From: Arthrobacter mangrovi
Lineage (GTDB): Bacteria; Actinomycetota; Actinomycetes; Actinomycetales; Micrococcaceae
Reading direction: 5' to 3'
NCBI RefSeq assembly: GCF_026011795.1
Contig: NZ_BRVS01000027.1
Location: 1-64,000 of the forward strand
DNA: 64,000 bases
A model generated the notes under the pieces. It ran no database searches. It saw only the letters and a list, made by a program, of their open reading frames with translations, and had not been told where the DNA came from. The translations under genes and the position numbers were made by a program. This document shows, piece after piece, positions 6,060 through 52,826 of the stretch. The number at the start of each line of letters is the position of its first letter. Within the stretch, counting starts at the first letter, position 1.

Positions 6060-6098
6060 TTGCCTTATCCTTTCCACTGCTTAGAAGGGGGATCGGTC

Positions 6099-7687: not shown

Positions 7688-7729
7688 GCACCGCCCCTGT
7701 CCACCTCACCCACGTAAAGGAAAAAGTTC

Positions 7730-9112: not shown

Positions 9113-9169
9113 CCGTGACTGAAACCGCCCGGACATTCGCTACCGGCCACTGAACGAAAGGAGGAGAAC

Positions 9170-9781: not shown

Positions 9782-9792
9782 AAGGTCTCGCC

Positions 9793-10062: not shown

Positions 10063-10091
10063 AAGCCAGCACCAGCAACGGGAGGTTCACC

Positions 10092-10844: not shown

Positions 10845-10845
10845 C

Positions 10846-13669: not shown

Positions 13670-15270
13670 TGGCCCGCGCGAAACTCTTTGCCTGGAAGAC
13701 CGCCGTGCCCGTCAAGGCGACAGCTAAGCGGAAGCCTGTGAAGCAGCCGGGCGGGGCCCGTCCCGGTACCCGTGGCTGGACGGGCCGGGGCGGGGGCATG
13801 GCCCGGCTCGTCCCGTCGGTGACGGAGTATCGGGGAACGACGGTCCAGGTCTGCGGGCTATGGCCATTTTCCTCGGGCGCGTCCTCGCCCATGATCGGCG
13901 TTCCGCTGGGCCGACATGAAGAAACCCAGGCAACGGTCTGCTGTGACCCGATCGGCTGGTTCCAGCGTGCGCGTCTGATCTCCAACCCTTCGGCCTTTAT
14001 CCTCGGCAAACCCGGGCTGGGCAAGTCCACGCTGGTCCGCCGCATGTTTCTGGGCCTGTCCGCGCAAGGGATCCACCCTCTGGTCCTCGGGGACCTGAAG
14101 GGTGAGCACGTCAAAGCCGTCCAGGCTCTCGGCGGGCAGGTAATCAGGCTCGGCCGCGGTGCCGGGTACCTGAACATCCTCGACCCGGGCCAGGCCGTCG
14201 AGGCCGCCGGTCTCCTCGAGGACCACGGGCACTTTGAGGCTGCCGCCCGGGTGAGGGCCGACGCGCACGGCCGCCGGCTGAACATGGTCGTCTCTCTGAT
14301 CACGATCAGCCGGAACAACCCGCCCACCGATCAGGAACAGACCATTCTGGACCGGGCGCTGCGGGTCCTCGATGACCGGTTCGACGGCATCCCGGTGCTC
14401 AAGGACCTGCTGGACGTGATTGTCTCCGCCCCGGACGAGCTGCGCCAGGTCGCGCTCGACCGCGGTGACATGAAGGTCTACCTGCGCGAGACCCGGGCGC
14501 TGGAGGCAACACTGCTGGGCCTGACCGGGGGAGGGAAGCTGGGCGAAATCTTCTCCCGGCAGACCAGCAACCCGATGCGGCGGGACCGCGCCGTGGTCTT
14601 CGACGTCTCCAGCATCGACGAGACCGAGACCGACCTGCAGGCCGCCGTGCTGCTCGCGTGCTGGTCGTACGGATTCGGAACGGTGAACGTCGCGAACGCC
14701 CTCGCGGACGCCGGCCTGGAACCGCGCCGGAACTACTTCGTGGTCCTGGACGAGCTGTGGAGGGCGCTGCGCTCCGGCAAGGGCATGGTCGACCGGGTGG
14801 ACGCGCTGACCCGACTGAACCGCTCCGTCGGCGTCGGACAGATCATGATTTCCCACACCATGTCCGACTTGCTGGCACTGCCCGCAGAAGAGGACCGCAT
14901 GAAAGCCAAAGGTTTCGTCGAACGCTCCGGCATGGTGATCTGCGGCGGCCTCCCGGCCTCGGAGATGCCCCTGCTGACCGCCGCCATTCCCCTCTCCCTC
15001 CAGGAGCAGCAGAAGCTCATCTCCTGGCAGGACCCGCCCGCCTGGGACTCCCGCGGCATCGACGTCGACCCGCCGGGCCGGGGCAAGTTCCTGATCAAGG
15101 TCGGCGGCCGCCCGGGCATCCCCGTGCAGATCGGCCTGACCTCCATCGAGAAGAACGACGGCCTGAACGACACCAACACCCGCTGGCACAAAGAGCGAAC
15201 AGAGAGGCCCACGGAACCTCCCCTGGGACCGGTGGCTGTCCGTTTGCCCGGCGAAGGAGGACGTGCGTGA
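13669..15270 (+). CDS. VirB4-like conjugation ATPase
   Basis: 533 residues. Walker A is GKPGLGKST (113-121); Walker B is FVVLDELW (Asp361, Glu362). A basic N-terminus (residues 1-45) precedes the ATPase. Such proteins power substrate transfer and pilus or channel assembly at the inner membrane. It starts on the last base of the SCO6880 gene stop and ends overlapping the coupling-protein start by 4 bases, so the three are tightly co-translated. Confidence 0.85.
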   Translation: MARAKLFAWKTAVPVKATAKRKPVKQPGGARPGTRGWTGRGGGMARLVPSVTEYRGTTVQVCGLWPFSSGASSPMIGVPLGRHEETQATVCCDPIGWFQRARLISNPSAFILGKPGLGKSTLVRRMFLGLSAQGIHPLVLGDLKGEHVKAVQALGGQVIRLGRGAGYLNILDPGQAVEAAGLLEDHGHFEAAARVRADAHGRRLNMVVSLITISRNNPPTDQEQTILDRALRVLDDRFDGIPVLKDLLDVIVSAPDELRQVALDRGDMKVYLRETRALEATLLGLTGGGKLGEIFSRQTSNPMRRDRAVVFDVSSIDETETDLQAAVLLACWSYGFGTVNVANALADAGLEPRRNYFVVLDELWRALRSGKGMVDRVDALTRLNRSVGVGQIMISHTMSDLLALPAEEDRMKAKGFVERSGMVICGGLPASEMPLLTAAIPLSLQEQQKLISWQDPPAWDSRGIDVDPPGRGKFLIKVGGRPGIPVQIGLTSIEKNDGLNDTNTRWHKERTERPTEPPLGPVAVRLPGEGGRA

Positions 15271-17042
15271 GTGCTCCGAACCGGAAAGGAATGGGCCTCG
15301 GGGATGCCCTGCTGGTCTGGCTGGCCATCGCCTTCATCATCGTGTTCAGCGGCGGCACCTACGCGGCAGCCCATCTTGGCGCCCGGTTGGCCGGCATTCA
15401 GGCTCCGCCTGCCCACCCGATTGATCTGCTGGCCGGACTGGCCAAGGGCCGCGTGCCCTGGCCAGCCCAATCCACACTCGCCGCTTTGCTCATGGCCGGC
15501 CTGGTCCTGGTGCTGGCCGTCGTCGTGCTGGCGGCCTGGCTGAAGGGCGCGTCCAAGCGTGCCCGCGTGGATAAGGCGGCCCGCTACCTCGGCCGGGGGA
15601 AGTCACTGGCCGCCTTCTCCGAGAAAGGCGCCACAGCCAAAGCCGAACGGCTGGGGGTGAAGGACAACCCCGGCATCGTCGTGGGCAAGGTGGTCTCCAC
15701 GGGCCAGAAATTCTTTCAGTCCTGGGAAGACCTCAGCCTCGATATCTGGGGGCCACGAACAGGTAAGTCGACCTCCCGAGTGATGCCCGCGATCCTGGAC
15801 GCCCCCGGGGCCGTGGTGTCGACGTCGAACAAACGCGACGTCGTGGACGGCACCCGCAGCGTCCGCGCCGAAACCGCACCGGTGTGGGTGTTCGATCCGC
15901 AGAAGATCGCCCAGGAAGAACCGGACTGGTGGTGGAACCCCCTGTCCTACGTCACCGACGAAGAGAAGGCGTACAAGCTCACCCAGCACTTCTCGGTCGG
16001 CTCACGGGTGCCCGGGTCCAAGCCGGACGCCTACTTCGACCCGAAGGCCGAAGACATCCTCTCCTCCTACTTCCTCGCGGCCGCGCTCGGCGGGCTGCCC
16101 ATTACCCAGGTGTATCTGTGGGTCACCGAACAGGTCAGCCGCCAACCGATCGAGATCCTCAAAACACACGGGTACGAGCTGCAGTACAAGGGCCTGGAGT
16201 CCACGCTGAAGCTGGCAGACAAACAGCGCGACGGCATCTTCGGCACCGCCGAGAAAATGATCCAGTGCCTCAAAAGCCGCAACACCCTGCGCTGGGTCGC
16301 CCCCGAACCCGGGACCACCGTAACGAGTGACCGCCGCCGGCAGTTCAACCCCCATGACTTCGCTGGCTCGAGGGAAACGATCTACATCCTCTCCAAGGAA
16401 GGCGCCCGCTCCGCCGCCCCCTTGACGACTGCACTAACGGTGGCGATCGCCGAAGCCATGGAGGAACGCGCCGAACGCCGCGGCGGCCGGCTGGATGTTC
16501 CAGCATTGTTCGCGCTGGATGAGCTGGCCAACGTGGTCCGCTGGGCCGGCCTGCCCGACCAGTTCAGCCACTACGGCTCCAAGGGCCTGATCGTCATGGG
16601 CATCCTGCAATCCTGGTCCCAGGGCGTCGAACTCTGGGGCGAGGCGAACATGCGCAAAATCTGGTCCGCCGCGAACATCAAGGTCTACGGCGGGGGAGTG
16701 GCAGAAGACGGCTTCCTCCGCGCACTCTCAGACCTGATCGGAGACTACAGCTACACCAACATCTCCATCTCCTCAGGCAAATCCGGGCGCAGCCGCTCCC
16801 GCCAGGAAGCCAAGGAACGCATCCTCGATGTCTCCAACCTCGCCGAACTCGACCGCGGCCGCGCCATCGTCCTCGCCTCCGGAGCCCCCGCCACCCTCGT
16901 CCGCACGCTGCCCTGGTACACCGGCCCACACAAGGAAGCCGTCGAAGCGTCCATCAAAACCAACAGCCTACGGCGCCAAGAAGACTTCGTGCCGGTGTCG
17001 GCGGGCGGAGCTGCTGCCACTAATCCATGGGTCAGCAGGTAG
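15267..17042 (+). CDS. VirD4/TraG-like type IV coupling protein
   Basis: 591 residues from GTG 15267, with GAAGGAGG upstream. Two N-terminal membrane helices (about 14-33 and 70-92) lead into a RecA-like ATPase with Walker A GPRTGKST (162-169), Walker B region VPALFALDELANV, and the conserved ILQSWSQGVELWG segment of TraG/VirD4 proteins. It should couple the relaxosome to the channel. A long C-terminal acidic tail is absent. Confidence 0.85.
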   Translation: MSAPNRKGMGLGDALLVWLAIAFIIVFSGGTYAAAHLGARLAGIQAPPAHPIDLLAGLAKGRVPWPAQSTLAALLMAGLVLVLAVVVLAAWLKGASKRARVDKAARYLGRGKSLAAFSEKGATAKAERLGVKDNPGIVVGKVVSTGQKFFQSWEDLSLDIWGPRTGKSTSRVMPAILDAPGAVVSTSNKRDVVDGTRSVRAETAPVWVFDPQKIAQEEPDWWWNPLSYVTDEEKAYKLTQHFSVGSRVPGSKPDAYFDPKAEDILSSYFLAAALGGLPITQVYLWVTEQVSRQPIEILKTHGYELQYKGLESTLKLADKQRDGIFGTAEKMIQCLKSRNTLRWVAPEPGTTVTSDRRRQFNPHDFAGSRETIYILSKEGARSAAPLTTALTVAIAEAMEERAERRGGRLDVPALFALDELANVVRWAGLPDQFSHYGSKGLIVMGILQSWSQGVELWGEANMRKIWSAANIKVYGGGVAEDGFLRALSDLIGDYSYTNISISSGKSGRSRSRQEAKERILDVSNLAELDRGRAIVLASGAPATLVRTLPWYTGPHKEAVEASIKTNSLRRQEDFVPVSAGGAAATNPWVSR

Positions 17043-27642: not shown

Positions 27643-29175
27643 ATGCAGATGCTCATCGACGGCGAGTGGGTCGACGCAGAGAACGGCAACACCATAGAGG
27701 TCGTCAATCCCGCGTCGGGGACAGTCATCGACACTGTTCCGGAAGCTTCCGACGCCGATGTCTACCGCGCAGTCGCAGCGGCCGCTCGGGCCCAGCGCGG
27801 CTGGGGCCAGACCTCCGCGCTTGCCCGGGCCGCAGTCATGCACGAATTCGCCGCCAAGGTGCGGGCCAACCAGCGCGAGCTGGCCGAGCTGCTGACCCTC
27901 GAGGGCGGCTCTTCCCTGGCCGAGAACATGGATGAAATCCGCTGGGTCGCGGAGGCGACCGAGTACTACGCGGAAATGGGGCGCAACGCGGGCGGCAGGA
28001 TTGTCCCGTCGCAGGAGCCGACGCTCACCAACCTGGTGCTCAAGCGGCCCGTCGGTGTTGTGGCGGCCATCGCACCGTGGAATTACCCTGCTCTGCTGCT
28101 GTCGTGGAAACTGGCTCCCGCGCTGGCGGCGGGCAATGCCGTCGTGATCAAGCCCCCGGCCGAAGCTCCGCTGACGGTACTCCGGCTCGTCGAGATGCTC
28201 GGCACCCCGCCGGGCGTCGTCCAGGTGCTCACGGGGGGCGTCGAACCCGGAATCCGGCTGGTTGAGCATCCGAAGACGGACATGGTGGCGTTCACCGGAT
28301 CGGTAGCGGCCGGGCAGGCAATCATCCGCTCCACGGCGGATCAGGTCAAGCGCCTTTCCCTCGAGCTTTCCGGCCACGATGCCATGATCATTTGCGACGA
28401 CGTCGATGTTGACGACGCGGTCGAGGCGGCCCTCTGGGCCGGCTTCACCAACGCCGGCCAGGTCTGCACTTCCTCCGAGCGCATCTACGTCATGCGCAAC
28501 ATCTTCGACGAGTTCTCCAGGAAGCTGGCCCAGCGGGCGGAGGAGCTCATCGTCGGCGATCCGATGGACCCCAACACGGACATCGGCGCCTTGGGCAATG
28601 CAAGCCAGCTCGAGAAGGCCCGCAAGTATGTGGAAACGGCGCGCGGGCTGGGCGCCACCGTGCTCGCCGGAGGCACTGAACCGGAAGGTCCGGGCCTCTT
28701 TTACCGGCCCACCGTCCTGACCGGCCTCACGCATGACCAGTTGATCGAACTCGGGGAGATCTTCGGGCCGGTGATGCCCCTGGTCCCCGTGGAATCGTTC
28801 GATGATGCCCTGCAGCTCGCCAACGACAGTGACATGGGACTGGGCGCCAATGTGCTGACCACCAACATGGAGCGTGCCTGGCGTGCAGCCAAGGAACTGC
28901 GGTTCGGGCAGGTCTGGATCAACAATCCGCTGGTGGACAATGACGCAGGTCCCTTCGGGGGGTTCCGCCGCAGCGGGCTTGGCCGGGAACTGGGCGAGGA
29001 GGGCCTGGAGACCTTCCAGGAGACGAGCCACGTCAGCTTCGACTACCAGCTGGAACGCAAGTACTGGTGGTACCCGTACTCGAGTTACTCCGAGGTCATG
29101 GGGCTCAAGGATGGGCGCACCAGCGGGTTCCTCGGGGGGCATGCCGGCACCACCGCGCAGGCAGCGGGGTCCTGA
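27643..29175 (+). CDS. NAD(P)-dependent aldehyde dehydrogenase (betaine-aldehyde-type)
   Basis: 510 residues. Oxyanion Asn147 (APWNYP), general base Glu241 (SLELSGHD) and nucleophile Cys275 (NAGQVCTSSER) are all present. The usual LELGGK is LELSGHD here, a mild departure. Overall closest in feel to betaine-aldehyde or aminoaldehyde dehydrogenases. First enzyme gene of a colinear set with alcohol dehydrogenase, gamma-aminobutyraldehyde dehydrogenase and amine oxidases, so an amine-derived aldehyde is the likely substrate. The C-terminus carries an extra tail of about 20 residues (GRTSGFLGGHAGTTAQA). Confidence 0.85.
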   Translation: MQMLIDGEWVDAENGNTIEVVNPASGTVIDTVPEASDADVYRAVAAAARAQRGWGQTSALARAAVMHEFAAKVRANQRELAELLTLEGGSSLAENMDEIRWVAEATEYYAEMGRNAGGRIVPSQEPTLTNLVLKRPVGVVAAIAPWNYPALLLSWKLAPALAAGNAVVIKPPAEAPLTVLRLVEMLGTPPGVVQVLTGGVEPGIRLVEHPKTDMVAFTGSVAAGQAIIRSTADQVKRLSLELSGHDAMIICDDVDVDDAVEAALWAGFTNAGQVCTSSERIYVMRNIFDEFSRKLAQRAEELIVGDPMDPNTDIGALGNASQLEKARKYVETARGLGATVLAGGTEPEGPGLFYRPTVLTGLTHDQLIELGEIFGPVMPLVPVESFDDALQLANDSDMGLGANVLTTNMERAWRAAKELRFGQVWINNPLVDNDAGPFGGFRRSGLGRELGEEGLETFQETSHVSFDYQLERKYWWYPYSSYSEVMGLKDGRTSGFLGGHAGTTAQAAGS

Positions 29176-29176
29176 C

Positions 29177-30283
29177 ATGCACATGAAAGGAGCCGTCTTC
29201 AACGGGCCCGGGACACCCCTGCAGATCGCCGAACTTTCGGTCTCCGGACCGCAGCCGGGTGAAGTGATGGTGCGGATGACAGCCAGCGGCGTCTGCCACA
29301 GCGACTACCACGTCGTGCTCGGTGAATGGGCGGCGCAGACCCCGCTGGTCCTCGGGCACGAAGGAGCGGGCATCGTGGTCGAGGTCGGCGACGGCGTCAC
29401 CGACGTGAACGTCGGCGACAGCGTCGCTCTCTCCTGGACACCGTCCTGCCGCAGGTGCCTCTACTGTGTCTCCGGCCGCCCCCAGCTGTGCACGTCGGCG
29501 GTACAGAACGCCTATCGGAATGTACTTCCGGACGGCACCACCAGGCTCAGTCGCGGCGGTGACCCGGTGTACAGCTACCTCTCGGTCGGATCGTTCGCGG
29601 AGTATGCGGTGGTTCCGGAAAGCGGAGCCATCAAGATCGCCGACGACGTCTCACCCGCCATCGCAGCGCTGGTCGGCTGCGCGGTCACCACCGGCGTTGG
29701 CGCCGCCATGAACACGGTTCCGGTTGCACCGGGATCGACTGTTGCAGTGATTGGAGCCGGCGGCGTCGGCCTGTCGGCCATCATGGGCGCACGCCTGCAG
29801 TCTCCTGCAACAATCATCGCGGTGGACCTTTCCGAGGAGAAACTCGAATTGGCGCGCCGCGCCGGTGCCACGCACACCATCAACGCCCGGGAAACCGACG
29901 TCGTTGGGGCCATCAAGGAGATCAGCGGGGGCGACGGCGTGGAGTATGCCTTCGAGGCGATCGGGCGGGCCGGCACCATAGAGCAGGCCTATGCCGCACT
30001 CGCCCCGGGAGGCACCGCCGTCGTTGTAGGCCAGGTCCCCAGCGGAGTGAAGATCTCCATTGATCCGATGGCCATGTCCGGCCGGGAGCTCACCCTCACC
30101 GGCAGCAACTACGGCTCATCCCGGCCCTCAGTGGATTTCAACCGCATCCTCGGTCTGCACAGCAGCGGAGCGCTCGATCTTGAGCTCCTCGTCGGCGATC
30201 GCATTCCCCTGGCAGACATCAATGAAGCCTTTACCGCCATGGGCTCAGGTGCGACGGGACGCACTGTCATCGAATTCCCCTGA
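29177..30283 (+). CDS. Zinc-dependent alcohol dehydrogenase (class III / mycothiol-type family)
   Basis: 368 residues from ATG 29177, one base after the aldehyde dehydrogenase stop. A second ATG six bases on is possible. Catalytic zinc site: GVCHSDYH and GHEGAG. Structural zinc: CRRCLYCVSGRPQLC with four cysteines. Rossmann motif VIGAGGVGLS. This is the long-chain MDR group that includes formaldehyde/mycothiol and aryl alcohol dehydrogenases. In this operon it may interconvert an amino alcohol and aldehyde, or handle formaldehyde from N-demethylation; the substrate is not determinable. Confidence 0.85.
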   Translation: MHMKGAVFNGPGTPLQIAELSVSGPQPGEVMVRMTASGVCHSDYHVVLGEWAAQTPLVLGHEGAGIVVEVGDGVTDVNVGDSVALSWTPSCRRCLYCVSGRPQLCTSAVQNAYRNVLPDGTTRLSRGGDPVYSYLSVGSFAEYAVVPESGAIKIADDVSPAIAALVGCAVTTGVGAAMNTVPVAPGSTVAVIGAGGVGLSAIMGARLQSPATIIAVDLSEEKLELARRAGATHTINARETDVVGAIKEISGGDGVEYAFEAIGRAGTIEQAYAALAPGGTAVVVGQVPSGVKISIDPMAMSGRELTLTGSNYGSSRPSVDFNRILGLHSSGALDLELLVGDRIPLADINEAFTAMGSGATGRTVIEFP

Positions 30284-30306: not shown

Positions 30307-31743
30307 ATGACAACCACAACCTTCGCGGCCGCGCACATTGCCGGTGAAGCGCGCGCGGGCTCCGCCGAACGTGTCCACGCCGCCGTTGATCCCTCCACCG
30401 GGCAGACCATCGCGGAGGTGCCCATTGCGGACGCCAGCATGGTCCATGCCGCCGTCGTGTCGGCGCAGTCTGCGTTCGACAACTGGGCGGACACGACGCC
30501 GGTGGAACGCGACACGATGCTCAACGCTCTGGCGGACCGGCTCATCGATCATCAGCAGGAACTGGGGGACCTCGAGGCACGCAACACCGGCAAACCACGC
30601 GGTGTTGCCTTCGACGAAGTCGCCGGCGCCGCTGAGCAGCTGCGGTTCTTCGGCGGGGCGGCACGTGTACTGGAAGGCAAGGCCGCCCGCGAGTATGTCG
30701 CCGGGCGGACGTCGTTCATCCGCCGTGATCCGGTGGGCGTGATCGGGCAGATCACCCCGTGGAATTACCCGCTGGTGATGGCGGCCTGGAAGATCGGTCC
30801 GGCCCTCGCCGCCGGCAACACCATTGTGCTGAAGCCGAGCGAGCTGACGCCGCTGTCCACGCTGCGGCTGGCGGAACTTACGGCCGACATCCTGCCACCG
30901 GGTGTGTTGAATGTGGTGGCCGGCGACGGGTCCACCGGAGCTGCGCTTAGCGGGCACCCCGGGATCGACATGGTCTGCGTCACCGGGAGCGTAGGCACCG
31001 GCCAGCACGTGCTCCGTGCTGCGGCTGAGCGGGTGAAACGCACGCATCTTGAGCTGGGCGGCAAGGCACCGGTGATGGTTTTCCCCGACGCCGACTTCGC
31101 CCGGCTTGCCGAGACCCTCAAGGTGGCAAGTTTCTGGAATTCCGGCCAGGACTGCACGGCCGCCTGCCGCCTGCTGGTGCAGGACAACGCGTACGACGAC
31201 CTCATGGCGGCCCTGGTGCCGGCGGTTGCCTCCCTGCGCGTCGGCGGTCCGTTCGAAGCGGACGCCATGGACATGGGGCCGGTGATCTCTGCGGCCCAGC
31301 GGGACCGGGTCACCGGATTCATCGACCGGGCCTCAAGTGCGGGGGCCGACATAGTCATCGGGGGTTCGGCGACGGGCCCTGCAGGCTACTTTGTCGAACC
31401 GACCATCATCGGCAATGTGGGGGCTGACGCGGAGATCGTCCGCAGCGAAGTCTTCGGCCCGGTCATCACCGTGCAGCGGTTCAGCGACGAGCAGGAAGCC
31501 CTGTCGATGGCCAACGGGGTGGACTACGGTCTTTCCGCTTCGGTCTGGACCGAGAACCTGGGCCGCAGCCTGCGACTGGCGCGGAAGCTTCAGTTCGGCG
31601 CCGTCTGGCTCAATGACCACCTGACGGTGGCCGACGAGATGCCGCACGGCGGCTACAAGATGTCCGGCTACGGCAAGGACCTGTCCACTTACGCCATCGA
31701 GGACTACACCGTCGTCAAGCACGTGATGGCTCGGATCGACTAG
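30307..31743 (+). CDS. Gamma-aminobutyraldehyde dehydrogenase-like (PatD/YdcW type)
   Basis: 478 residues. Asn153 (PWNYP), Glu249 (HLELGGKAP) and Cys283 in SGQDCTAACRLL; the D-C-T-A-A-C pattern is characteristic of the PatD/YdcW group that oxidises 4-aminobutanal, the product of putrescine oxidation, to GABA. The neighbouring amine oxidases support this. A GTG or ATG start further in is not needed: GAAAGAGA precedes the ATG. GABA would then go to chromosomal GABA transaminase, as none is encoded here. Confidence 0.85.
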   Translation: MTTTTFAAAHIAGEARAGSAERVHAAVDPSTGQTIAEVPIADASMVHAAVVSAQSAFDNWADTTPVERDTMLNALADRLIDHQQELGDLEARNTGKPRGVAFDEVAGAAEQLRFFGGAARVLEGKAAREYVAGRTSFIRRDPVGVIGQITPWNYPLVMAAWKIGPALAAGNTIVLKPSELTPLSTLRLAELTADILPPGVLNVVAGDGSTGAALSGHPGIDMVCVTGSVGTGQHVLRAAAERVKRTHLELGGKAPVMVFPDADFARLAETLKVASFWNSGQDCTAACRLLVQDNAYDDLMAALVPAVASLRVGGPFEADAMDMGPVISAAQRDRVTGFIDRASSAGADIVIGGSATGPAGYFVEPTIIGNVGADAEIVRSEVFGPVITVQRFSDEQEALSMANGVDYGLSASVWTENLGRSLRLARKLQFGAVWLNDHLTVADEMPHGGYKMSGYGKDLSTYAIEDYTVVKHVMARID

Positions 31744-31761: not shown

Positions 31762-33492
31762 ATGGAAGAGCAAACCAACTACGACGCGATCGTCGTTGGA
31801 GCGGGATTCGCCGGCCTGATCGCTGCACGCGATCTTGCCGCCCGGGGCCAGCGCGTTGTGGTTTTGGAGTCGCAGGAGCGCATCGGCGGGCGCACCTGGT
31901 ACAAGGAGTTTCCGGGCAGCGGACGCAAGGTCGAGTACGGCGGAACGTGGTTTTCCACGGAAAGCATGAGTAGCCTCGCCACGGAGATTGACCGCTACAG
32001 AGTCGAGGTCGTCGACCAGCCGGCGCCCAAAACCTTCGTCTGGGATACCGGCGGCGTGCGTCGGGCGACGGCACCGATTCCCGCGGAGGAATTCGGGGCA
32101 GCCGAAGCCTTCCTCGCCGCCCTGCACCGGGCGATGGCGGCGGTGCCGGGAGGCGCCATCGTTGCCGGGACGGATTACAGCGAATGGGACGTCGCCATCA
32201 CCGAGTGGGAGCCCACGAAGGCTCTGCCGCTGGCTTCCCGCGAGTTTGTCTACGCCTGGGCGGCGATGTACGGCGGGTGCGCCCCGGGGGAGGTCAGCGT
32301 GTTGCACTACGCGCGCATGATGGCCGAGTTCGGCGACCGGGCCAGTGCACTCTATGACGGGCTAGCCCAGAAGTTCGCCCACGGGACCACACAGCTGGCC
32401 GAAGCAATCCTCGCTGACAGCGGCGCCGACATCGTACTCTCCACCCCGGTGACGGCGATTGCTCAGGATAGCACCGGGGTCCGCGTGGACACGGCCAGGG
32501 GTCCGTATACGGCAGAGACGATTGTGTGCACGGTTCCCCTCAACGCGCTGCATCGCATCCGCTTCGAACCCCCGCTTCCGTCCGACAAAGCCGCAGCTAT
32601 CAGAGCGGGTCACCCTTGCCGCTCGATCAAAGTGTGGGCCCGGGCAACAGGGGTCCCCGAGGGACTGTTCGCACTGGGCTGGGGCGGCCCCATCCAATGG
32701 CTTAGCAACGAGTACTCCCTGGCGGACGGCAGCAGCCTGGTAGTGGGCTTCGGATACGATCCCCAAGCCCTTAGGGCGTCTGACCCCCGCGCCGTGGAGG
32801 CGGCCATCCGGAAGTATGCGCCTGACGCCGTGGTTTTGGCCTGCGACGCACATGACTGGGACAGTGACGACAATTCCGACGGAGCCTGGAGTATCTGGGG
32901 TCCCGGATGGGTAGTGGCCGGCCACGAGCAGGCCTTCGACAAGCCACACGGCCGGGTCCACTTTGCCTCATCCGACCTGGCGAAGCAGTGGCCCGGCTGG
33001 ATCGACGGAGCCATCCACTCGGGGGCTGCCCAAGCCCGGAAAGCCGCTGACCCTGACAACCAAGAAAAGGAAGGTAATGGCATGACGGAGAAGACATTGG
33101 CGGCTGAGCAGGCGGCGGTTTTCCGCAGGACCGATATACCAGCCGTATCACCGGACTGGCCTGGCGTCCGATCACGCTGGATTACACCTCCGCCGGCCGA
33201 AGGCGGCTGGATCGGGGGACTGCTGGCCGAATGGGAACTGGAAGCAGCCGGCTGGGCAGATACCCATCCGCACGACGAATACGCCTTCGTGATCGAAGGG
33301 GAGCTGCACGTCGAATGCGCCGGCGTCGAACATGTCTTGTCTCCCGGCGACACCATTTGCGTACCTGGTGGTCAAACGGGCCGCTACTGGGCCCCTGTGT
33401 ATGCGCGGATGCTTGGCGTCTGGGGGCCCAATCCCGACGGCGACGAGACAGAGCACGGAGAGTGTTTTGCCATCAAAGGAGATGCACAATGA
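31762..33492 (+). CDS. Flavin monoamine oxidase fused in frame to a cupin domain
   Basis: 576 residues. Residues 1-440 are a full-length FAD amine oxidase: dinucleotide motif VGAGFAGLIAA, the ERIGGRTW motif, and the C-terminal GWIDGAIHSGAAQA. Residues 441-576 are a single cupin domain (THPHDEYAFVIEGELHVE, then LSPGDTICVPGG). At the join, AAGGAAGG stands seven bases before an in-frame ATG at 33082, so the cupin could also be made as a separate protein. This suggests that two cistrons merged by loss of a stop codon. The oxidase should deaminate a primary amine such as putrescine or tyramine; the cupin role is unknown. Confidence 0.8.
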   Translation: MEEQTNYDAIVVGAGFAGLIAARDLAARGQRVVVLESQERIGGRTWYKEFPGSGRKVEYGGTWFSTESMSSLATEIDRYRVEVVDQPAPKTFVWDTGGVRRATAPIPAEEFGAAEAFLAALHRAMAAVPGGAIVAGTDYSEWDVAITEWEPTKALPLASREFVYAWAAMYGGCAPGEVSVLHYARMMAEFGDRASALYDGLAQKFAHGTTQLAEAILADSGADIVLSTPVTAIAQDSTGVRVDTARGPYTAETIVCTVPLNALHRIRFEPPLPSDKAAAIRAGHPCRSIKVWARATGVPEGLFALGWGGPIQWLSNEYSLADGSSLVVGFGYDPQALRASDPRAVEAAIRKYAPDAVVLACDAHDWDSDDNSDGAWSIWGPGWVVAGHEQAFDKPHGRVHFASSDLAKQWPGWIDGAIHSGAAQARKAADPDNQEKEGNGMTEKTLAAEQAAVFRRTDIPAVSPDWPGVRSRWITPPPAEGGWIGGLLAEWELEAAGWADTHPHDEYAFVIEGELHVECAGVEHVLSPGDTICVPGGQTGRYWAPVYARMLGVWGPNPDGDETEHGECFAIKGDAQ

Positions 33493-33638
33493 ATGAGCTC
33501 GACGACCGCTTGTCAGCATTGGAAAGGCCGGAGAACCAAGGGGAACCGCTCGACCGGCAGGGATTCTTCCTGCTGGCCGGACTGACCCTTGTGCTTCCCG
33601 CGGCGCTGCTCCTGGTGGGGCTGGTGTTTCCCGCATGA
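33489..33638 (+). CDS. 49-residue single-pass membrane peptide coupled to an NCS1 permease
   Basis: ATG 33489 overlaps the amine oxidase-cupin stop (ATGA), and its TGA overlaps the permease ATG at 33635 (ATGA). The first 27 residues are polar and charged (NELDDRLSALERPENQGE), followed by one hydrophobic helix (about 28-47). The double overlap makes chance unlikely. It may be a small subunit of the permease, like other short membrane peptides that accompany transporters, but the function is unknown. Confidence 0.7.
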   Translation: MNELDDRLSALERPENQGEPLDRQGFFLLAGLTLVLPAALLLVGLVFPA

Positions 33639-35068
33639 GCAGCCAGCAGAACTCCTCCGCCATTGTAGAAGGCTCACTGCCCCTGCTGCCCGGGCAGCGC
33701 ACCTGGGGGCCCCTGGCCCTGTTCGGCAATTCGGCCTCGGCCGCGGTGGCCACCTGGTGCTTCATCACCGGCGGATACATTGCCTACTGGCTTCCCGCCG
33801 GGCGGGGCAGCATCGCCATCACGGCCGGCACCCTGCTGGGCCTGTTCATCATGATGCTGGCCGCGGTGCCCGCCTCAAGCCGCTACGGCATCGAAGCCGT
33901 CCGCTCCACCCGCCCGCAGTTCGGCGTCCGCGGCTCCAACTTCGCTCTGGTCCTGGTGCTCTTGATCATGGCGGGCTGGAACGCAGTACTGACCATCTTC
34001 CTGGGCCGCGCCGCAGCTTCTGCGCTCATCACCATGAACGTCCTTCCGGAGGCCCAACGCGCCGCGGCGGAAATCGGCTTCGGGATCCTGGGTTGCCTGG
34101 TCGTCTTCATCCTGCTCCGCAAGGGCCCGGACACCCTGCGCAACATCGGCCCGGTCATCGCCGTCAGCGTGATCGCGCTCTCCGCCGTCATCATGATCAT
34201 CCTCGTGACCAACGTTGGTCTGGAGACCATCTTCGCGGCTCGTCCCCTCGAGCCCTACCCCAGCGAGCGACTGAACTACGCCCTGGTTACCGAGCTGGGC
34301 ATCGCCGGTGCCGTGGCCTGGTGGCCATACGTCGGTGGCCTAACCAGATTCAGCAAGTCCACCCGCGGCTCCATCCTCCCCGTGGTCCTCGGACTGGGCG
34401 TGACGATGAGCCTGGTCATCATCATCGGTCTGTTCGCCAGCCTCGCAGTGCCGGAATCGGGTGGAGATCCAACAGCCTTCCTGATCGAAGTAGGAGGACC
34501 CGTATTCGGAGTAGTCGCTCTCGGGTTCATCGTGCTGGCCAACATCGGCACCACCATGATCGGGGTCTACGTCTGCGCACTCGCCCTCAAACAAGTACCG
34601 TCCATTGACCGGAAAGTCAGCTGGAAAGGCTCCACGGCGATCTCCATCCTTCCGGTACTGGCCATCCTGGTGTTTTTCGCGGGCCCCTTCATGGACAACT
34701 ACGGGACCTTCCTGGCGTTCGCAGGCGTGACGCTCGGACCGATCTGCGGCGTCCAAATCGCCGACTACTACTTCATCCGGAAACAGCACCTCGACGTGCG
34801 GGCACTCTTCACCGAGGACCGCGGAGGAACGTACTGGTACTTCGGCGGGGTCAACCCTGCCGGCTTCATCGGGGCCGCCGCCGGTGTTGCCACCTACCTC
34901 CTGATCCTCGATCCCGTGCACTTCACGGCCCGGCCCGGCTTCGAATACATGACCGCTACCATTCCGGCAACTATCGCCGCAGGCGCATCCTATTGGCTGG
35001 CCATGCGTTTAATCCCTGGACTGTGGACGCGGAGCGCCCCCCAGTCCCAGCGCCTGCCCGTGGCCTAG
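33635..35068 (+). CDS. NCS1-family permease (cytosine/purine permease-like)
   Basis: 477 residues, twelve predicted helices. NCS1 features include the early RTWGPLALFGNSASAAVATW, R-x-x-F/Q-G-V-R-G-S-N (PQFGVRGSNFALV), and the late GPICGVQIADYYFIRKQ. NCS1 proteins import nucleobases, hydantoins, vitamins and some amines by Na+ or H+ symport. In this operon it likely imports the amine or N-heterocycle oxidised by the enzymes. A hairpin terminator follows. Confidence 0.85.
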   Translation: MSSQQNSSAIVEGSLPLLPGQRTWGPLALFGNSASAAVATWCFITGGYIAYWLPAGRGSIAITAGTLLGLFIMMLAAVPASSRYGIEAVRSTRPQFGVRGSNFALVLVLLIMAGWNAVLTIFLGRAAASALITMNVLPEAQRAAAEIGFGILGCLVVFILLRKGPDTLRNIGPVIAVSVIALSAVIMIILVTNVGLETIFAARPLEPYPSERLNYALVTELGIAGAVAWWPYVGGLTRFSKSTRGSILPVVLGLGVTMSLVIIIGLFASLAVPESGGDPTAFLIEVGGPVFGVVALGFIVLANIGTTMIGVYVCALALKQVPSIDRKVSWKGSTAISILPVLAILVFFAGPFMDNYGTFLAFAGVTLGPICGVQIADYYFIRKQHLDVRALFTEDRGGTYWYFGGVNPAGFIGAAAGVATYLLILDPVHFTARPGFEYMTATIPATIAAGASYWLAMRLIPGLWTRSAPQSQRLPVA

Positions 35069-35164: not shown

Positions 35165-36571
35165 ATGACTGCCGTATCGGCCGAGCCCCTCAACGGACAC
35201 CTCGGCTTTTGGATGGCGAACCTGCAGCCGGAGCATCTGTCTCAGCCCCGGTTCGAGGGGGAGGACACCATTGACCTGGCCATCATCGGCGGCGGGCTGA
35301 CCGGCCTCTGGGCCGCCTACTTCGCCAAATCACTCGACCCTTCGCTTTCCATCGCCGTTTTAGAAGCGGAACGTATCGGCTACGGCGCTTCTGGCAGGAA
35401 CGGCGGCTGGGCATCGGCCCTCGTCCCCGGGAACCGTGCCCGGTTTGCCCGCGCCGCCGCCGAAGGCAAGTCCGCCAGCATAGCGTTGCAGCAGGAGTTC
35501 ATCAGATCAGTGGACGGCATGCTGGACACGCTCGGCGGTGAGGGCATCCAAGCCGACCAGCACAAAGGCGGGACGCTCTCGGCCGCCCACACAGAGGCCG
35601 GACTCCAGCGGCTCTTGGACAAGCGCCAGGCAGACCTTTCCTATGGCTACGCACCGGAACAGGTTCAGGTTCTGGACCGGCAGGAGTTCAAGAACCTGAT
35701 CAATATCGACGACGTCCACGGAGGGCTCTTCTATCCTGATGTTGCACGGATCGATCCCGCCAAACTGGTGCACGGCCTGGCCGGGGTACTGGAATCCAAG
35801 GGCGTAAGGCTGTACGAATCCAGTCGTGTACTCTCCGTGGAGAACGGCACCGTCACCCTTGAAGCAGGGAGGGTGAGGGCACCTATGGCCTTCATCTGCA
35901 CCGAGGGCTATTCCGCCCCGCTGCTTGGACCCCGCAGGCTCATTCCCATCAACTCCTCCATGATCGTTACGCAACGGCTGGACGACCGGGACTGGGAACA
36001 CATCGGCTGGAACGGCCTCCAGTGCCTCAACGACTCGGCCCATGCGTTCATTTACGCGCAGCGCACCGCCGACAGCCGGATCGCGATCGGCGGCCGTGGC
36101 ATGCCCTACCGGTTCGCCTCGGGAACCGGAGGACACGGCCGGACGTCGGAGGCAACCGTGCGCCAGCTGCTGCAAAAACTGCACCGCTTCTTCCCCGGCA
36201 TCGAATTCAGGGCCGAGCACGCCTGGTCCGGAGTTCTGGGCGTGACCAGGGACTGGAACGCAAGCGTCACGTGGGATCCGGGATCCGGCGTCGGCGCGTC
36301 CGTCGGCTACGCCGGACACGGTGTCACCTCCGCCTTCGTCGGGGCACGAACCCTCGCCGAGCTCGCACTCGGACACAAGACCGAGCGAACGCAATTGCCC
36401 TGGGTCGGTTACCGCTCACGCAGCTGGGAGCCGGAACCCATCCGCTGGCTCGGCGTTCACGCGATGTACCGGCTGTTCGGTATAGCAGACGCATGGGAGG
36501 AATGGCGCGGCTCGGCCAAGACCTCGGCCCTCGCGAAATTCGGCAGCCGCCTGGCCGGCTTACACGAATAA
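35165..36571 (+). CDS. FAD-dependent amine oxidoreductase (DAO family, PuuB-like)
   Basis: 468 residues. The dinucleotide motif is IIGGGLTGLWAAYFA; the segment YGASGRNGGWASALVPG (about 75-95) is typical of the gamma-glutamylputrescine oxidase/glycine oxidase branch of the DAO family, and GYAGHGVTSAFVGARTLA near residue 380 is the second conserved FAD contact. A CDS start at ATG 35165 follows GGAGCTAGACC. As the last gene of module B it gives the module a second amine-oxidising enzyme, possibly for a different step or an N-substituted amine. Confidence 0.8.
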   Translation: MTAVSAEPLNGHLGFWMANLQPEHLSQPRFEGEDTIDLAIIGGGLTGLWAAYFAKSLDPSLSIAVLEAERIGYGASGRNGGWASALVPGNRARFARAAAEGKSASIALQQEFIRSVDGMLDTLGGEGIQADQHKGGTLSAAHTEAGLQRLLDKRQADLSYGYAPEQVQVLDRQEFKNLINIDDVHGGLFYPDVARIDPAKLVHGLAGVLESKGVRLYESSRVLSVENGTVTLEAGRVRAPMAFICTEGYSAPLLGPRRLIPINSSMIVTQRLDDRDWEHIGWNGLQCLNDSAHAFIYAQRTADSRIAIGGRGMPYRFASGTGGHGRTSEATVRQLLQKLHRFFPGIEFRAEHAWSGVLGVTRDWNASVTWDPGSGVGASVGYAGHGVTSAFVGARTLAELALGHKTERTQLPWVGYRSRSWEPEPIRWLGVHAMYRLFGIADAWEEWRGSAKTSALAKFGSRLAGLHE

Positions 36572-47010: not shown

Positions 47011-47339
47011 AAGGACTTCATGCGAGGCGGTACGGGCAGATGCTCGTACGGATCGGCGTCGTGCACACTCATCAGGGGTGCAGCCTGATGAACCCAGTCA
47101 CTGGGATTAGGCGCTTGAACCAAGAGCCGCCCCCCATGATCGTTTGGATAGCGGACACCCCACTTGGCCGCGGTCGCGAGCTGGGTCCGCGGACTACGAG
47201 AGAAACGGCTCTTAATTGACAAGGGAACCGCTTCCGGCGGCGCATGGCGACTGGCGGAAGCCTTCAAGGGCCACTGAGCGCAGCTGGGTCCGTGCCCCTA
47301 AAATAGGTTCTGATGCAGGCAACAAGGGAAGAAGCGAGA
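47011..47339. other. Intergenic region before the second PaaX gene
   Basis: About 330 bases without a convincing coding frame. No strong hairpin or palindrome was found. The last 30 bases carry AAGGGAAG, the likely ribosome binding region of the PaaX gene. Confidence 0.35.
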
Positions 47340-48224
47340 ATGCCAACGGTGATTGCGGTTCCAAGGCCGCCGCTGAGGCACCAGCAGCTGATCCTGACGA
47401 TTTATGGGCTTTACGGGAGGCGCGGGGGCGGGCCGTTGCCGGTCTCGGTGCTGATAGACATGCTCGCCGACCTCGGTCATGATGCCCCTGGGGTGCGCTC
47501 GGCGGTGTCGAGGTTGAAGGCCAAGGGCGTGCTCAACAGCGTCAAATCCGGCGGAGTGGCAAAGTACGAGCTGTCACCGCGCTCGCTCGAGATGGTCAAC
47601 GAGGGCGACGAACGGATCTTTGCCCCGTACCGCGGATCGCCCGGAGGCCAGTGGGTGCTGGCGATATTCTCGGTTCCTGAGTCGATGCGGGACCGGCGGC
47701 ACCAGTTGCGCACCGAACTGACGCGGCTGGGCTTCGGGTCGATGGCGGCAGGCGTGTGGATCGCTCCCGCTGGTGTGCGTGAGGGCGCGAAGCGGCGGCT
47801 GGCCTCCCGCGGCTTGGCAGATTATGTCGAATTCTTCACGGGTGATTACGCCGCCGAAGGGGATATGCGCGAGCGGGTCGCCCAGTGGTGGGATCTGGAG
47901 GCCCTGGGCGACCAGATCCGCGAATTCATGGACTACTACAGGAACGCTCTGGCCGATTGGTCCGGCTTGGTGGGCGGGGATCCGGAGATAGCCCTGGCCG
48001 AGTCTTCGCCGGAATTGCGCCGGGACGCCTTCCGCTACTACGTGCCGATGCTCACGCTGTGGCGCCGGCTGCCGTACCGCGATCCCGGTCTGCCCCTGGA
48101 GTACCTGCCCGAGGGCTGGCAGGGGCCCGAGGCGCGGCGCATTTTCTTCGGGACGCATGATCTGATCGCGCCCCTGGCCGAGGCCCACGCGATGTCGCTG
48201 GTCACTAAGGCCGAGGCTGCCTAG
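47340..48224 (+). CDS. PaaX-family transcriptional regulator (module D)
   Basis: 294 residues from ATG 47340; ATG 47313 is an alternative. Winged helix at about 15-75 (LILTIYGLYGRRGGG, GVRSAVSRLKAKGVL) and the same effector-domain signatures as the PaaX gene at 38253 (ERVAQWWDLEALGDQIREFM, LWRRLPYRDPGLPLEYLPEGW). PaaX proteins sense aryl-CoA esters, and this module makes and uses one, so this protein is the likely controller of the Rid and FAH-ligase-monooxygenase operons. Confidence 0.85.
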   Translation: MPTVIAVPRPPLRHQQLILTIYGLYGRRGGGPLPVSVLIDMLADLGHDAPGVRSAVSRLKAKGVLNSVKSGGVAKYELSPRSLEMVNEGDERIFAPYRGSPGGQWVLAIFSVPESMRDRRHQLRTELTRLGFGSMAAGVWIAPAGVREGAKRRLASRGLADYVEFFTGDYAAEGDMRERVAQWWDLEALGDQIREFMDYYRNALADWSGLVGGDPEIALAESSPELRRDAFRYYVPMLTLWRRLPYRDPGLPLEYLPEGWQGPEARRIFFGTHDLIAPLAEAHAMSLVTKAEAA

Positions 48225-48241
48225 TCTCTGGCAACGCCGAT

Positions 48242-48274
48242 AGCGGCCCGGCCGGCAGTGCCGGCCGGGCCGCT
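48242..48274. terminator. Bidirectional hairpin between convergent genes
   Basis: A perfect 16-bp inverted repeat (AGCGGCCCGGCCGGCA at 48242-48257 with its complement at 48259-48274) around one base, between the stops of PaaX (plus) and the Rid gene (minus). Very GC-rich, no T run. Confidence 0.75.
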
Positions 48275-48293
48275 GTGGGCTGGAATAGGATTT

Positions 48294-48710
48294 CTAGCGG
48301 TCCTGGATTACTGCCACGCCCTGGATCTCGATCAGGGCTTCCTTTTGCCAGAGGCGGCTGACGCCGATTCCCGCCATGGCGGGGTACTCGGTTCCGGCCA
48401 TCTGGCGCCAGAGCTTGCCGATCTCCCGGCCGTTCGCCATGTAATCGTCCACGTCCGTGAGGTAAATGGTCACGCTGACCAGGTCCTCGGCACGGCCGCC
48501 GGCCTCTTCCAGGGTGGCCAGGACGTTGGAGAAGGCCTGCTTGAACTGCTCCACGATGCCGCCGGGAACGATGTTCATGTCCTTGTCCAGCGCGGTCTGT
48601 CCGCCGAGGTAGACCGTGTTGCCGGCGAGGACGCCGTGGGCGTAGCCGGAGGGCTTGGGCAGTGACTCGGGGTTGATGGTCCGGTTGCCGACTGCGGTCT
48701 GGTTGCTCAT
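48294..48710 (-). CDS. Rid (YjgF/YER057c) family protein lacking the canonical Arg
   Basis: 138 residues from ATG 48710, with AAGGAGG upstream. Rid fold: GYAHGVLAGNTVYLGGQTAL, QAFSNVLATLEEAGG, LVSVTIYLTDVDDYM. In RidA the catalytic Arg lies in a P-A-R-S/T motif; here it is YPAMAGIGVSRLW, so Met occupies that place. Other Rid subfamilies work in aromatic pathways as aminomuconate or enamine deaminases. Divergent from the FAH-family gene at 48851 and probably in the same regulon, it may hydrolyse an amino- or imino-containing ring-cleavage product. Confidence 0.8.
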   Translation of the reverse strand: MSNQTAVGNRTINPESLPKPSGYAHGVLAGNTVYLGGQTALDKDMNIVPGGIVEQFKQAFSNVLATLEEAGGRAEDLVSVTIYLTDVDDYMANGREIGKLWRQMAGTEYPAMAGIGVSRLWQKEALIEIQGVAVIQDR

Positions 48711-48746
48711 TGCTGCCTCCTTGGCATTGGTGTGGCTGGTTTCACA

Positions 48747-48760
48747 ATTTTTCGAAAAAT
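48747..48760. promoter_or_regulatory. AT-rich perfect palindrome in the module D divergent promoter
   Basis: ATTTTTCGAAAAAT lies midway between the Rid gene start (48710) and the FAH-family start (48851), in an otherwise GC-rich region. The position fits an operator controlling both directions, with the neighbouring PaaX as candidate. Confidence 0.55.
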
Positions 48761-48850
48761 GCTCTGTGCAGATCCTTCCGACCGTGCTACGTTGAGCATA
48801 TGTGACGGCCGTAAAAAAGTCGACACATCTGAACAAGGGAGATCGAAAAC

Positions 48851-49708
48851 GTGAAACTGGCCACCTTGCGCACCGGTGCAGCAACAACGACGGCGGCAGT
48901 CCAGACGGGTGCGGAAACCTACCTGCCGCTGCCCGCCAGTGACGTCGGCGCCCTGCTTGCGGACCCGGCTTGGCGGGCGCGTGCAGAGGAAACGATGCGC
49001 TCTGCCCCGGCCTCCGCCGTCGTGCAGGTTTCCCGCACACAGCTGGCGCCGCTGCTGCCGCACGCCGGCAAGGTGATCTGCTGCGGCCTGAACTACGGCG
49101 ACCACATCCAGGAGATGGGGCGGGAGCTGCCGGAATACCCGACACTGTTCGCCAAGTTTGCCGACACGCTGGCCGGCCCCGCGGACGAACTCGCGGTGCA
49201 CGGCAGCGGCCGGGTTGATTGGGAAGCCGAGCTGGCCGTGGTGGTGGGAGCCACCCTCACCTGTGCGGATGAAGCCGAGGCCGCGGCGGCGATCGCCGGC
49301 TATACCGTGGCCAACGACGTCTCCATGCGCGACTGGCAGAACCGGACCCTCCAGTGGTTCCAGGGCAAGGCCTTCGACGCGAGCACTCCGGTCGGTCCGG
49401 TGCTGGCCACCGCCGACGAGTTTGACGGCAGCGGCTTCGAAGTCCGCGGTTACGTCAACGGAGAGCTGGTCCAGCGGGGCCACACCCGGACGCTGGTGTT
49501 CGGTCCGGCGAAGCTGCTGTCCTACATTTCGCAGTTCACGACGCTGCGCCCGGGGGACCTGGTCCTGACCGGCACGCCCGGCGGAGTGGGCATGGGGATG
49601 AAGCCGCCGCGCTTCCTGCAGGACGGCGACGTCCTCACGACCGAAATCGACGGGATCGGCCGGCTGGAAAACCGCATGCTGATCAACCAACCGGCACTGA
49701 CCAACTGA
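48851..49708 (+). CDS. Fumarylacetoacetate hydrolase (FAH) family protein
   Basis: 285 residues. The FAH fold signature GLNYGDHIQEMG (Tyr, His, Glu) and metal ligands in DWEAELAVVVG and ANDVSMRDWQ are intact. Family members hydrolyse C-C bonds of acylpyruvates or decarboxylate/hydrate ring-cleavage products; fumarylpyruvate or maleylpyruvate hydrolysis is the role in gentisate-type pathways. First gene of the five-gene operon with cupin, thioesterase, CoA ligase and monooxygenase-reductase. Confidence 0.85.
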   Translation: MKLATLRTGAATTTAAVQTGAETYLPLPASDVGALLADPAWRARAEETMRSAPASAVVQVSRTQLAPLLPHAGKVICCGLNYGDHIQEMGRELPEYPTLFAKFADTLAGPADELAVHGSGRVDWEAELAVVVGATLTCADEAEAAAAIAGYTVANDVSMRDWQNRTLQWFQGKAFDASTPVGPVLATADEFDGSGFEVRGYVNGELVQRGHTRTLVFGPAKLLSYISQFTTLRPGDLVLTGTPGGVGMGMKPPRFLQDGDVLTTEIDGIGRLENRMLINQPALTN

Positions 49709-49721
49709 GAAGGAGCACGAC

Positions 49722-50204
49722 ATGACCGAGACAGCCACCGAATACCGCACCGAGGGCGATAACTCCAGCTATACCGGAGCCGACGGCAAGGTGGTGCCTG
49801 TGGTGACCCGCGGCGGCGCCGAGGACACCAACACGGCCCAGTCGGGGGACTGCGTGCGGGTGTCCGGTGTGAGCATCCAGCACACTCCGGCCACCAAGAT
49901 CTGGTTCGGCCAGGTCTCTAATGTCCCCGGCTACCGCTCGCTGCCGCATCACCATGGCGAGGCCGAGACCGGCGGCTACGTGCTGCGCGGCCACGGCCGG
50001 ATCTATTTCGGTGAGAACTACTCCGAATTCATCGACATGAAGGCCGGCGACTGGGTGTTCGTGCCGCCATTCATGCCGCACGTGGAGGCGAATATGTCGG
50101 TCACCGAGGAACTGGTCTGGCTGACTGCCCGCACGCCGGAGAACATTGTGGTCAACCTTGAGGACGTAGCCGACGAGACCCTGGAAGGATACCGCCGGGC
50201 ATGA
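49722..50204 (+). CDS. Cupin-domain protein, candidate ring-cleavage dioxygenase
   Basis: 160 residues, a single cupin. Metal ligands: HHH at 76-78 with Glu80 or Glu82 (RSLPHHHGEAETGGYVLRG), and His120 (GDWVFVPPFMPH). Small cupins of this size include 3-hydroxyanthranilate dioxygenase, whereas gentisate dioxygenases are usually double cupins of about 350 residues. Between an FAH-family and a thioesterase gene, a ring-opening dioxygenase role is attractive, but an auxiliary role is possible. Overlaps the next gene by 4 bases (ATGA). Confidence 0.7.
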   Translation: MTETATEYRTEGDNSSYTGADGKVVPVVTRGGAEDTNTAQSGDCVRVSGVSIQHTPATKIWFGQVSNVPGYRSLPHHHGEAETGGYVLRGHGRIYFGENYSEFIDMKAGDWVFVPPFMPHVEANMSVTEELVWLTARTPENIVVNLEDVADETLEGYRRA

Positions 50205-51079
50205 ACACGATGACGGGCACCTTGACGGCCGAAACCTTCCTGCGCGCCATCGACCTGGAGGCCGTCGAGCCGCAGGTCTTCGACGAGGCCTACGAAGCCA
50301 CCACGCAGTACGTCCCGTGGCCCAAGGCCTACGGCGGCGACATGGTGGCCCAGTCCGCGGCGGCCATGATGCGCTCCGTCGGCGCGGACCGCCAGCTGCA
50401 TTCGATGCACAGCTACTTCATGCGCCCGGTCGATATCGGTGCTGTGGTCCGCTACGAGGTGGAGAACCTGCGCGACGGCCGCGGCTATTCCACCCGCAGC
50501 GTGCGCGGCTACCAGGGCGGTAAGGCAGTGTTCGCAGCCATGGGCTCTTTCCAGGTGCCTGAGGAGGGGCCTGAATTCCAGGCGGAAATGCCCGCCGCCG
50601 TGGAACCCGAGTCACTGCGCAGCGCCGCTGAAGCATTGAACGGCATCGAGGGCGACGCCGCGGCTTACTGGTCCGCTGGCCGCAGCTTCGACATGCGCCA
50701 CGTTCCCGGCCCCGTGTACGTGGAGGTCGAGGGCGAACAGGTCCCGCAGCAGGCCGTCTGGGTTAAGGCGTTCGACCGGCTGCCCGACGGCGCCGACCTG
50801 CACCGCACGGCGCTGGCCTACGTCTGCGACTACACCATCCTGGAGCCGATCCTGCGGGCGCACGGCAACTATTGGGCGGAGCCCGGACTGGCGACCGCAA
50901 GCCTGGACCACTCCATGTGGTTCCACCGCGAGGGCCGCGCGGACGAGTGGGTGCTCTACGCCCAGGAAGCCGTTTCCGGACAACGCAACCGGGGACTGGC
51001 CACCGGCCGGTTCTTCGACCGCTCCGGCCGCCTGCTGGCCACCGTCGCTCAAGAAGGCATGATCCGCGCCGCACGCTGA
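50201..51079 (+). CDS. Acyl-CoA thioesterase, TesB-like double hotdog
   Basis: 292 residues. N-terminal hotdog includes YVPWPKAYGGDMVAQSAAAM and LHSMHSYFMRPVDIG, and the second repeat has LAYVCDYTILEPILRAHG and SLDHSMWFHREGRADEW, as in acyl-CoA thioesterase II. In an operon with an aryl-CoA ligase and a CoA-ester hydroxylase, it could free the hydroxylated aromatic acid from CoA, as the thioesterase step does in the salicylate-CoA to gentisate route. Confidence 0.8.
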   Translation: MNTMTGTLTAETFLRAIDLEAVEPQVFDEAYEATTQYVPWPKAYGGDMVAQSAAAMMRSVGADRQLHSMHSYFMRPVDIGAVVRYEVENLRDGRGYSTRSVRGYQGGKAVFAAMGSFQVPEEGPEFQAEMPAAVEPESLRSAAEALNGIEGDAAAYWSAGRSFDMRHVPGPVYVEVEGEQVPQQAVWVKAFDRLPDGADLHRTALAYVCDYTILEPILRAHGNYWAEPGLATASLDHSMWFHREGRADEWVLYAQEAVSGQRNRGLATGRFFDRSGRLLATVAQEGMIRAAR

Positions 51080-51157
51080 GCCTCGCGGCGGCATCCACCG
51101 TCGGCGATGCCGCCCAAGCCCCGCGGCCCGCCCAACCATCCCCCTGAAAGGAACGCC

Positions 51158-52813: not shown

Positions 52814-52826
52814 AAGGACTAACGAC

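Follow-up and report, generated by a model that had tools for sequence, protein, structure and literature searches.

How did an amine oxidase come to end in a cupin, and can the cell still make that cupin on its own? The locus that raises the question lies in Arthrobacter mangrovi, in a window of 64,000 nucleotides (positions 1 to 64,000 of NZ_BRVS01000027.1, assembly GCF_026011795.1) that forms the start of a 99,630-base contig. There, one open reading frame (ORF), 576 codons from ATG to TGA with no stop inside, encodes a flavin amine oxidase and a cupin in a single chain (Table 1). We consider it rather likely that two neighbouring genes of an amine/aldehyde operon, itself probably located on a plasmid, have truly fused here, joined by a small insertion or deletion (indel) in the tail of the oxidase. 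If real, the frame shows two operon genes after their fusion with the start signals of the second still in place, and by the usual logic of fusions it hints that an uncharacterised cupin family works with amine oxidation.

Two domains in one frame and their separate relatives

The first part of the protein matched Amino_oxidase (PF01593) at residues 16-427 (E 1.5e-44, 153.5 bits against a curated cut-off of 19.8), spanning positions 1-441 of the 443 in the profile. G13, G15, G18, E36 and K290 occur in at least 90% of the aligned oxidase homologues; we take the first four to be the N-terminal Rossmann motif that binds flavin adenine dinucleotide (FAD) and Lys290 to be the active-site lysine. 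In a model of the full-length fusion this part is mostly confident to about residue 430, and its last dozen or so residues are unconserved, in the role of a linker. The second part matched Cupin_2 (PF07883) at residues 496-539 (E 6.8e-9, 35.8 bits against a curated cut-off of 27.2). An earlier reading of the letters, made without database searches (the sequence-only reading), had an oxidase running straight into a complete cupin, and the reading frame and both family matches bear this out.

The join carries the two signals reported there by that reading, a Shine-Dalgarno (SD)-like motif, AAGGAAGG, and an in-frame ATG (33067-33084 in all). Seven bases, TAATGGC (33075-33081), separate the motif from the ATG at 33082-33084, which encodes residue 441. 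Both other frames hold a stop triplet here: TGA at 33083, overlapping the ATG as ATGA in a frame one step off that of the oxidase, and TAA at 33075, just 5' of the ATG in the third frame.

Only one genome was found with nearly the same operon, that of A. hankyongi I2-34 (NZ_JAKLTQ010000010.1). Re-read from the genome, its oxidase and cupin are two distinct genes whose stop and start codons overlap as ATGA, and the cupin ATG is the only ATG, GTG or TTG from the upstream in-frame stop to the matched region. Gene order is the same from the regulator to the DAO-type oxidoreductase save one gene, at 56-84% protein identity, with matches to the regulator, aldehyde dehydrogenase 1, alcohol dehydrogenase, oxidase, cupin, 49-residue protein, permease and DAO-type oxidoreductase. 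Unlike the window, A. hankyongi has no close aldehyde dehydrogenase 2 before the oxidase and carries a distant aldehyde dehydrogenase (30-33%) behind its DAO gene. The two genes are therefore separate and adjacent in the single syntenic relative found (1 of 1).

We found no fusion among the other homologues. All 16 oxidase homologues, which are the loci retrieved with some weaker genus-level matches left out, stop 4-20 residues past the matched region. A seventeenth, L080, matched query residues 3-467 across a TGA and was considered as a broken fusion; its oxidase stops 2 residues past the match and the locus has no cupin match, so this candidate was rejected. Among 24 cupin homologues (E ≤1e-20, 10 other genomes, both flanks read for up to about 5 kb and less at contig ends), none is fused to an oxidase and one, that of A. 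hankyongi, lies beside one. A Mycolicibacterium relative (59% identity) has homologues of aldehyde dehydrogenase 2, the oxidase, the alcohol dehydrogenase and the DAO protein, with no cupin match in 11 kb. The comparison of homologues proposed with the sequence-only reading thus yielded a separate gene with a stop at the cupin start codon in A. hankyongi, and unfused genes in the others.

Wider searches agree. Scanning GTDB genome contigs with six exact peptide patterns returned two loci only, in A. hankyongi and Mycolicibacterium, and no second fusion. No other oxidase-cupin fusion was found in the family (295 genomes, cupin query), the genus (10, whole protein), the order (396, oxidase query), the phylum (396, oxidase; 396, cupin), the class (394, whole protein) or relatives of genome G1215 (58, whole protein); these sets share genomes and are mostly samples of larger groups, and the order, phylum and class searches were thin (3, 4 or 10 candidates scored per genome) and missed A. 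hankyongi itself. Viral contigs gave no match, and plasmid records gave no DNA match. Oxidase relatives are present in 51 plasmid records, all below 60% identity; one plasmid cupin relative, carried as a free gene by Gordonia pGKT2, was found at E up to 1e-5, and further weak ones, of about 33%, stand among the matches listed at E up to 10. In the papers searched, none brings the terms amine oxidase, cupin and fusion protein together with operon. Passages of PMC6776027, on Arthrobacter aurescens TC1, name amine oxidases and a cupin apart and name no fusion, and none of the sought terms occurs in PMC4921024. The frame is probably a fusion, met once only, of genes adjacent in an operon.

From Met441 onwards the cupin seems to be whole, because the start of the A. 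hankyongi gene is the sole option there and the free homologues are of similar length (134-141 residues, L061 apart). Starts near the place of Met441 can be assigned to these homologues; for those other than A. hankyongi, the ATG closest to the expected position was chosen. Modelled alone from Met441, the cupin reached a predicted local distance difference test (pLDDT) score of 89.8. The calculated mass is 61.7 kDa for the fused chain and 14.7 kDa for this cupin. The mixed alignment A2 placed distant cupins wrongly and was kept out of the modelling.

The point of joining can be narrowed by comparison with A. hankyongi. In-frame similarity runs through ...QARKAAD (to about 33048) and returns in the cupin, with about 33 unconserved bases between. 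A shared anchor stands 48 bases from the cupin ATG in the window and 53 bases from it in A. hankyongi; the difference of five is not divisible by three. Hence, as the anchor distance is out of phase and the ATGA stop lies one frame off, a small indel is the simplest origin of the fusion. In the ancestor, as judged from this one relative, the oxidase would have ended at the TGA of the ATGA overlap and the cupin would have been made by coupled translation; a small indel in the unconserved C-terminal tail would then have moved the oxidase into the cupin frame. Every complete oxidase chain would now end in the cupin, as follows from the sequence, and the cupin's own ribosome binding site and ATG, left in place, would still allow some free cupin to be made. 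That the genes were separate first and fused later is suggested by the unfused oxidases and cupins, although they stand side by side in just one of those genomes.

The start signal inside the fused frame

Is the cupin still made on its own? The duplex with the tail of the 16S ribosomal RNA is calculated at -9.1 kcal/mol at the cupin ATG, against -5.7 kcal/mol at the oxidase start and -6.5 kcal/mol at the A. hankyongi cupin start. As in a gene with an internal in-frame start, an SD motif and a start codon stand at the border of two domains, and RNA folding around them is unremarkable (z -0.41). The internal ribosome binding site proposed from the letters is thus a strong SD that coincides with the start of the homologous gene.

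We give about an even chance to free cupin being made beside the fusion by internal initiation. A strong, well-spaced SD with no unusual RNA structure over the site makes it plausible; against it, inner sites of such strength exist without known use, and elongating ribosomes cross the site. A free oxidase would not be expected, since the sole stop in the oxidase frame is that of the cupin. If the fusion is real, the locus offers a small natural test of whether internal initiation sustains a free product after coupled genes merge.

A further step can be imagined, in which selection strengthened the internal SD once the frameshift had ended coupling, giving both the fusion and an independently set dose of free cupin. 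We regard this as quite unlikely; its basis is the single comparison of the SD in the window with that of the unfused relative. If true, the locus would be a snapshot of coupled genes becoming a two-product fusion gene.

Weighing the fusion

Several observations weigh against a real fusion formed in this way. In the full-length model the cupin scores poorly, largely under 50; the alignment behind that model held one cupin homologue only, so the low score is no guide to folding within the fusion. Ancestral state and mutation type both rest on A. hankyongi, the one syntenic comparator. Any ATG start followed by a codon with A in first place yields an ATGA, which makes its persistence weak evidence. 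Purifying constraint on both parts, seen against A. hankyongi in nonsynonymous (dN) and synonymous (dS) divergence (oxidase dN 0.23, dS 0.94; cupin dN 0.14, dS 1.54), speaks for the fusion, yet it mostly reflects the time before the fusion and is no sign of selection on the fused form.

Nor is a strong SD before an inner ATG rare. Across 28 ORFs of the window, some without a family match and all with unproved start positions, 6 of 273 inner in-frame ATGs reach -9.1 kcal/mol, the cupin ATG included (about 2% per ATG); one of these equally good six, codon 6 of its gene, is possibly the true start there. Within the fused frame itself, a GTG at 32299-32301, in the middle of the oxidase domain, scores -12.0 kcal/mol (-11.9 in a second scoring), an example of the inner SD sites that arise by chance. 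Hence, since these sites score as well, the AAGGAAGG motif by itself proves little; the cupin SD is more than chance because it is located at the start of a homologous separate gene.

One alternative accepts the fusion and gives it another meaning: the fused form would be the selected product, in which the cupin serves the oxidase as a domain and the SD-like motif is an unused leftover. Neighbours in one operon are natural fusion partners, and the strength of the SD is within the range of other inner sites. However, the genome searches, thin in part, found no second fused lineage and so gave no sign of a maintained architecture, and we hold this alternative to be possible but doubtful.

A sequencing or assembly error would leave the genes separate in the organism, with an indel in the draft joining the frames. 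A miscount of one base anywhere in the tail would be enough, as both other frames hold a stop at the join, and the fusion is a singleton in the searched material, known from one assembly. In PMC3711429, singleton frame transitions are put down to likely indel mutations or sequencing errors, and those validated by BLASTp are expected to be errors and not genuine indels, a further point against a real fusion. However, the same text holds singleton transitions near the 3' end to be likelier real indels than those elsewhere in a gene, and its cases are split frames, the reverse of the fused frame here. The assembly is in 52 contigs with 99.99% completeness and 1.34% contamination, the other operon genes read uninterrupted, and the longest single-base run in the tail (33048-33081) is four. 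An error is therefore unlikely, and a real fusion by indel remains our preferred explanation.

The sequence-only reading had two adjacent genes merging by loss of a stop. The merging of neighbours agrees with the separate genes of A. hankyongi and with the absence of fused homologues, whereas the loss of a stop is less well supported: a TGA is still present at that place (33083-33085), one frame off, which makes an indel upstream of it likelier. In favour of substitution of an in-frame stop codon, the ancestral tail of this lineage may have differed from that of A. hankyongi, and the tail has diverged too far for confident base alignment. Since the A. hankyongi stop lies in the ATGA frame, the ATGA is retained in the window and the shared-anchor distances differ by five bases, not a multiple of three, we judge substitution very unlikely. 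We also weighed programmed frameshifting at the join and set it aside, as the tail shows no canonical slippery heptamer and the frame is continuous without one.

The operon, its setting and comparison with known systems

Table 1. Features of the fused gene and its operon in the A. mangrovi window
Feature	Positions	Strand	Basis or remark
Fused frame, 576 residues, flavin amine oxidase and cupin	31762..33492	+	ORF list, translation, Pfam
Amine oxidase part, residues 1-440, Pfam match 16-427	31762..33081	+	Pfam, homologues, model
Cupin part, 136 residues, Met441 to 576, candidate free product	33082..33492	+	Pfam, alignment, model
Join, unconserved tail, likeliest place of the frame change	33048..33081	+	Comparison with A. 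hankyongi
SD-like AAGGAAGG, duplex -9.1 kcal/mol	33067..33074	+	Letters, duplex energy
TGA overlapping ATG (ATGA), outside the oxidase frame	33083..33085	+	Place of the A. hankyongi oxidase stop
Aldehyde dehydrogenase 1	27643..29175	+	Family match, A. hankyongi
Zinc alcohol dehydrogenase, class III-like	29177..30283	+	Family match; start at ATG (searched as 29168-30283)
Aldehyde dehydrogenase 2	30307..31743	+	Above aminobutyraldehyde dehydrogenase NF010000 cut-off, 645 bits against 615
Small protein, 49 residues, ATGA overlaps on both sides	33489..33638	+	A. hankyongi conservation 67%
NCS1-type permease	33635..35068	+	Pfam match; below NCBIfam cut-offs
FAD-dependent oxidoreductase, DAO family	35165..36571	+	Family match

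The operon most likely serves to import a small amine or N-heterocycle and to oxidise it via an aldehyde, because of the kin of its oxidase, the subfamily of aldehyde dehydrogenase 2 and the NCS1-type permease. The oxidase part would turn the amine into an aldehyde, to be oxidised further by the aldehyde dehydrogenases encoded nearby. Between cupin and permease, the 49-residue protein is hydrophobic in its C-terminal half and matched no family of Pfam or NCBIfam; it is possibly an accessory subunit of the permease.

Among 20 stretches holding the cupin family, seven (L041, L054, L055, L057, L060, L061 and L063, A. hankyongi among them) also have a homologue of the window's permease, aldehyde or alcohol dehydrogenases; the other 13, some shortened by contig ends, have none. 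A scan of ten neighbours from four cupin stretches revealed FMO-like monooxygenases (L060, L063), a class III aminotransferase (L055), parts of a sugar-type ATP-binding cassette (ABC) transporter, other genes and one protein without a match. Such neighbours would fit a role of the cupin relatives in the same kind of catabolism.

The operon probably belongs to a plasmid or to an integrated transfer element, because the contig carries transfer genes and the coupling protein has kin on plasmids. Genes at 6060-17042 of the window encode CHAP, ParA-like, TrbL-like (below cut-off), HerA/DUF87 and TraG/VirD4-like proteins, and the coupling protein is 79-84% identical to the best eight plasmid records listed, all from Arthrobacter and close genera. 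Elsewhere in the window (47313-55217) are a PaaX-type regulator, an acyl-coenzyme A (CoA) thioesterase, an AMP-binding ligase and a 796-residue protein with FAD_binding_3 and Oxidored_FMN domains; the last resembles the layout of 2-aminobenzoyl-CoA monooxygenase/reductase, perhaps in an anthranilate-type CoA pathway.

Known structures resemble each part separately. The nearest solved sequences to the oxidase are the bacterial amine oxidases 7e7h and 7u6l and 6-hydroxy-L-nicotine oxidase (3k7m), matched over residues 6-429 or 7-421; unlike the fused protein, their chains of 474, 453 and 431 residues have no room for a cupin too. The nearest solved folds to the cupin are KdgF (5fq0) and TM1459 (e.g. 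8awn, 1vj2), which share its beta-barrel (Foldseek E about 1e-6, TM-score by query about 0.6) at an identity of only about 20%. We take the canonical cupin metal site to be three His and one Glu, and the place of the motif-2 His to be Gly100 here. This glycine is invariant in the aligned family, which thus lacks the canonical site. D60, H62, H64 and E66 are invariant over the 22 rows of alignment A1 (two L061 copies entered as one row; L054, with an in-frame stop in its match, and a second near-copy in L063 left out); these four could hold a metal, and another metal set is possible. In L061 (5015-5869), two tandem cupins of this family are fused to each other in one open frame, and the cupin homologue of L054 (about 5012-5362), with an in-frame TGA in the matched stretch, is possibly a pseudogene.

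Translational coupling at NTGA overlaps is a known process, and frame transitions between neighbouring genes form a recognised class (PMC12548453, PMC3711429); in the window, a good SD precedes the downstream start as well, so that coupling is not its sole possible route. The pairing of oxidase and cupin was not met elsewhere in the searched material; the probable manner of their merging, by change of frame, is an ordinary route of bacterial gene fusion.
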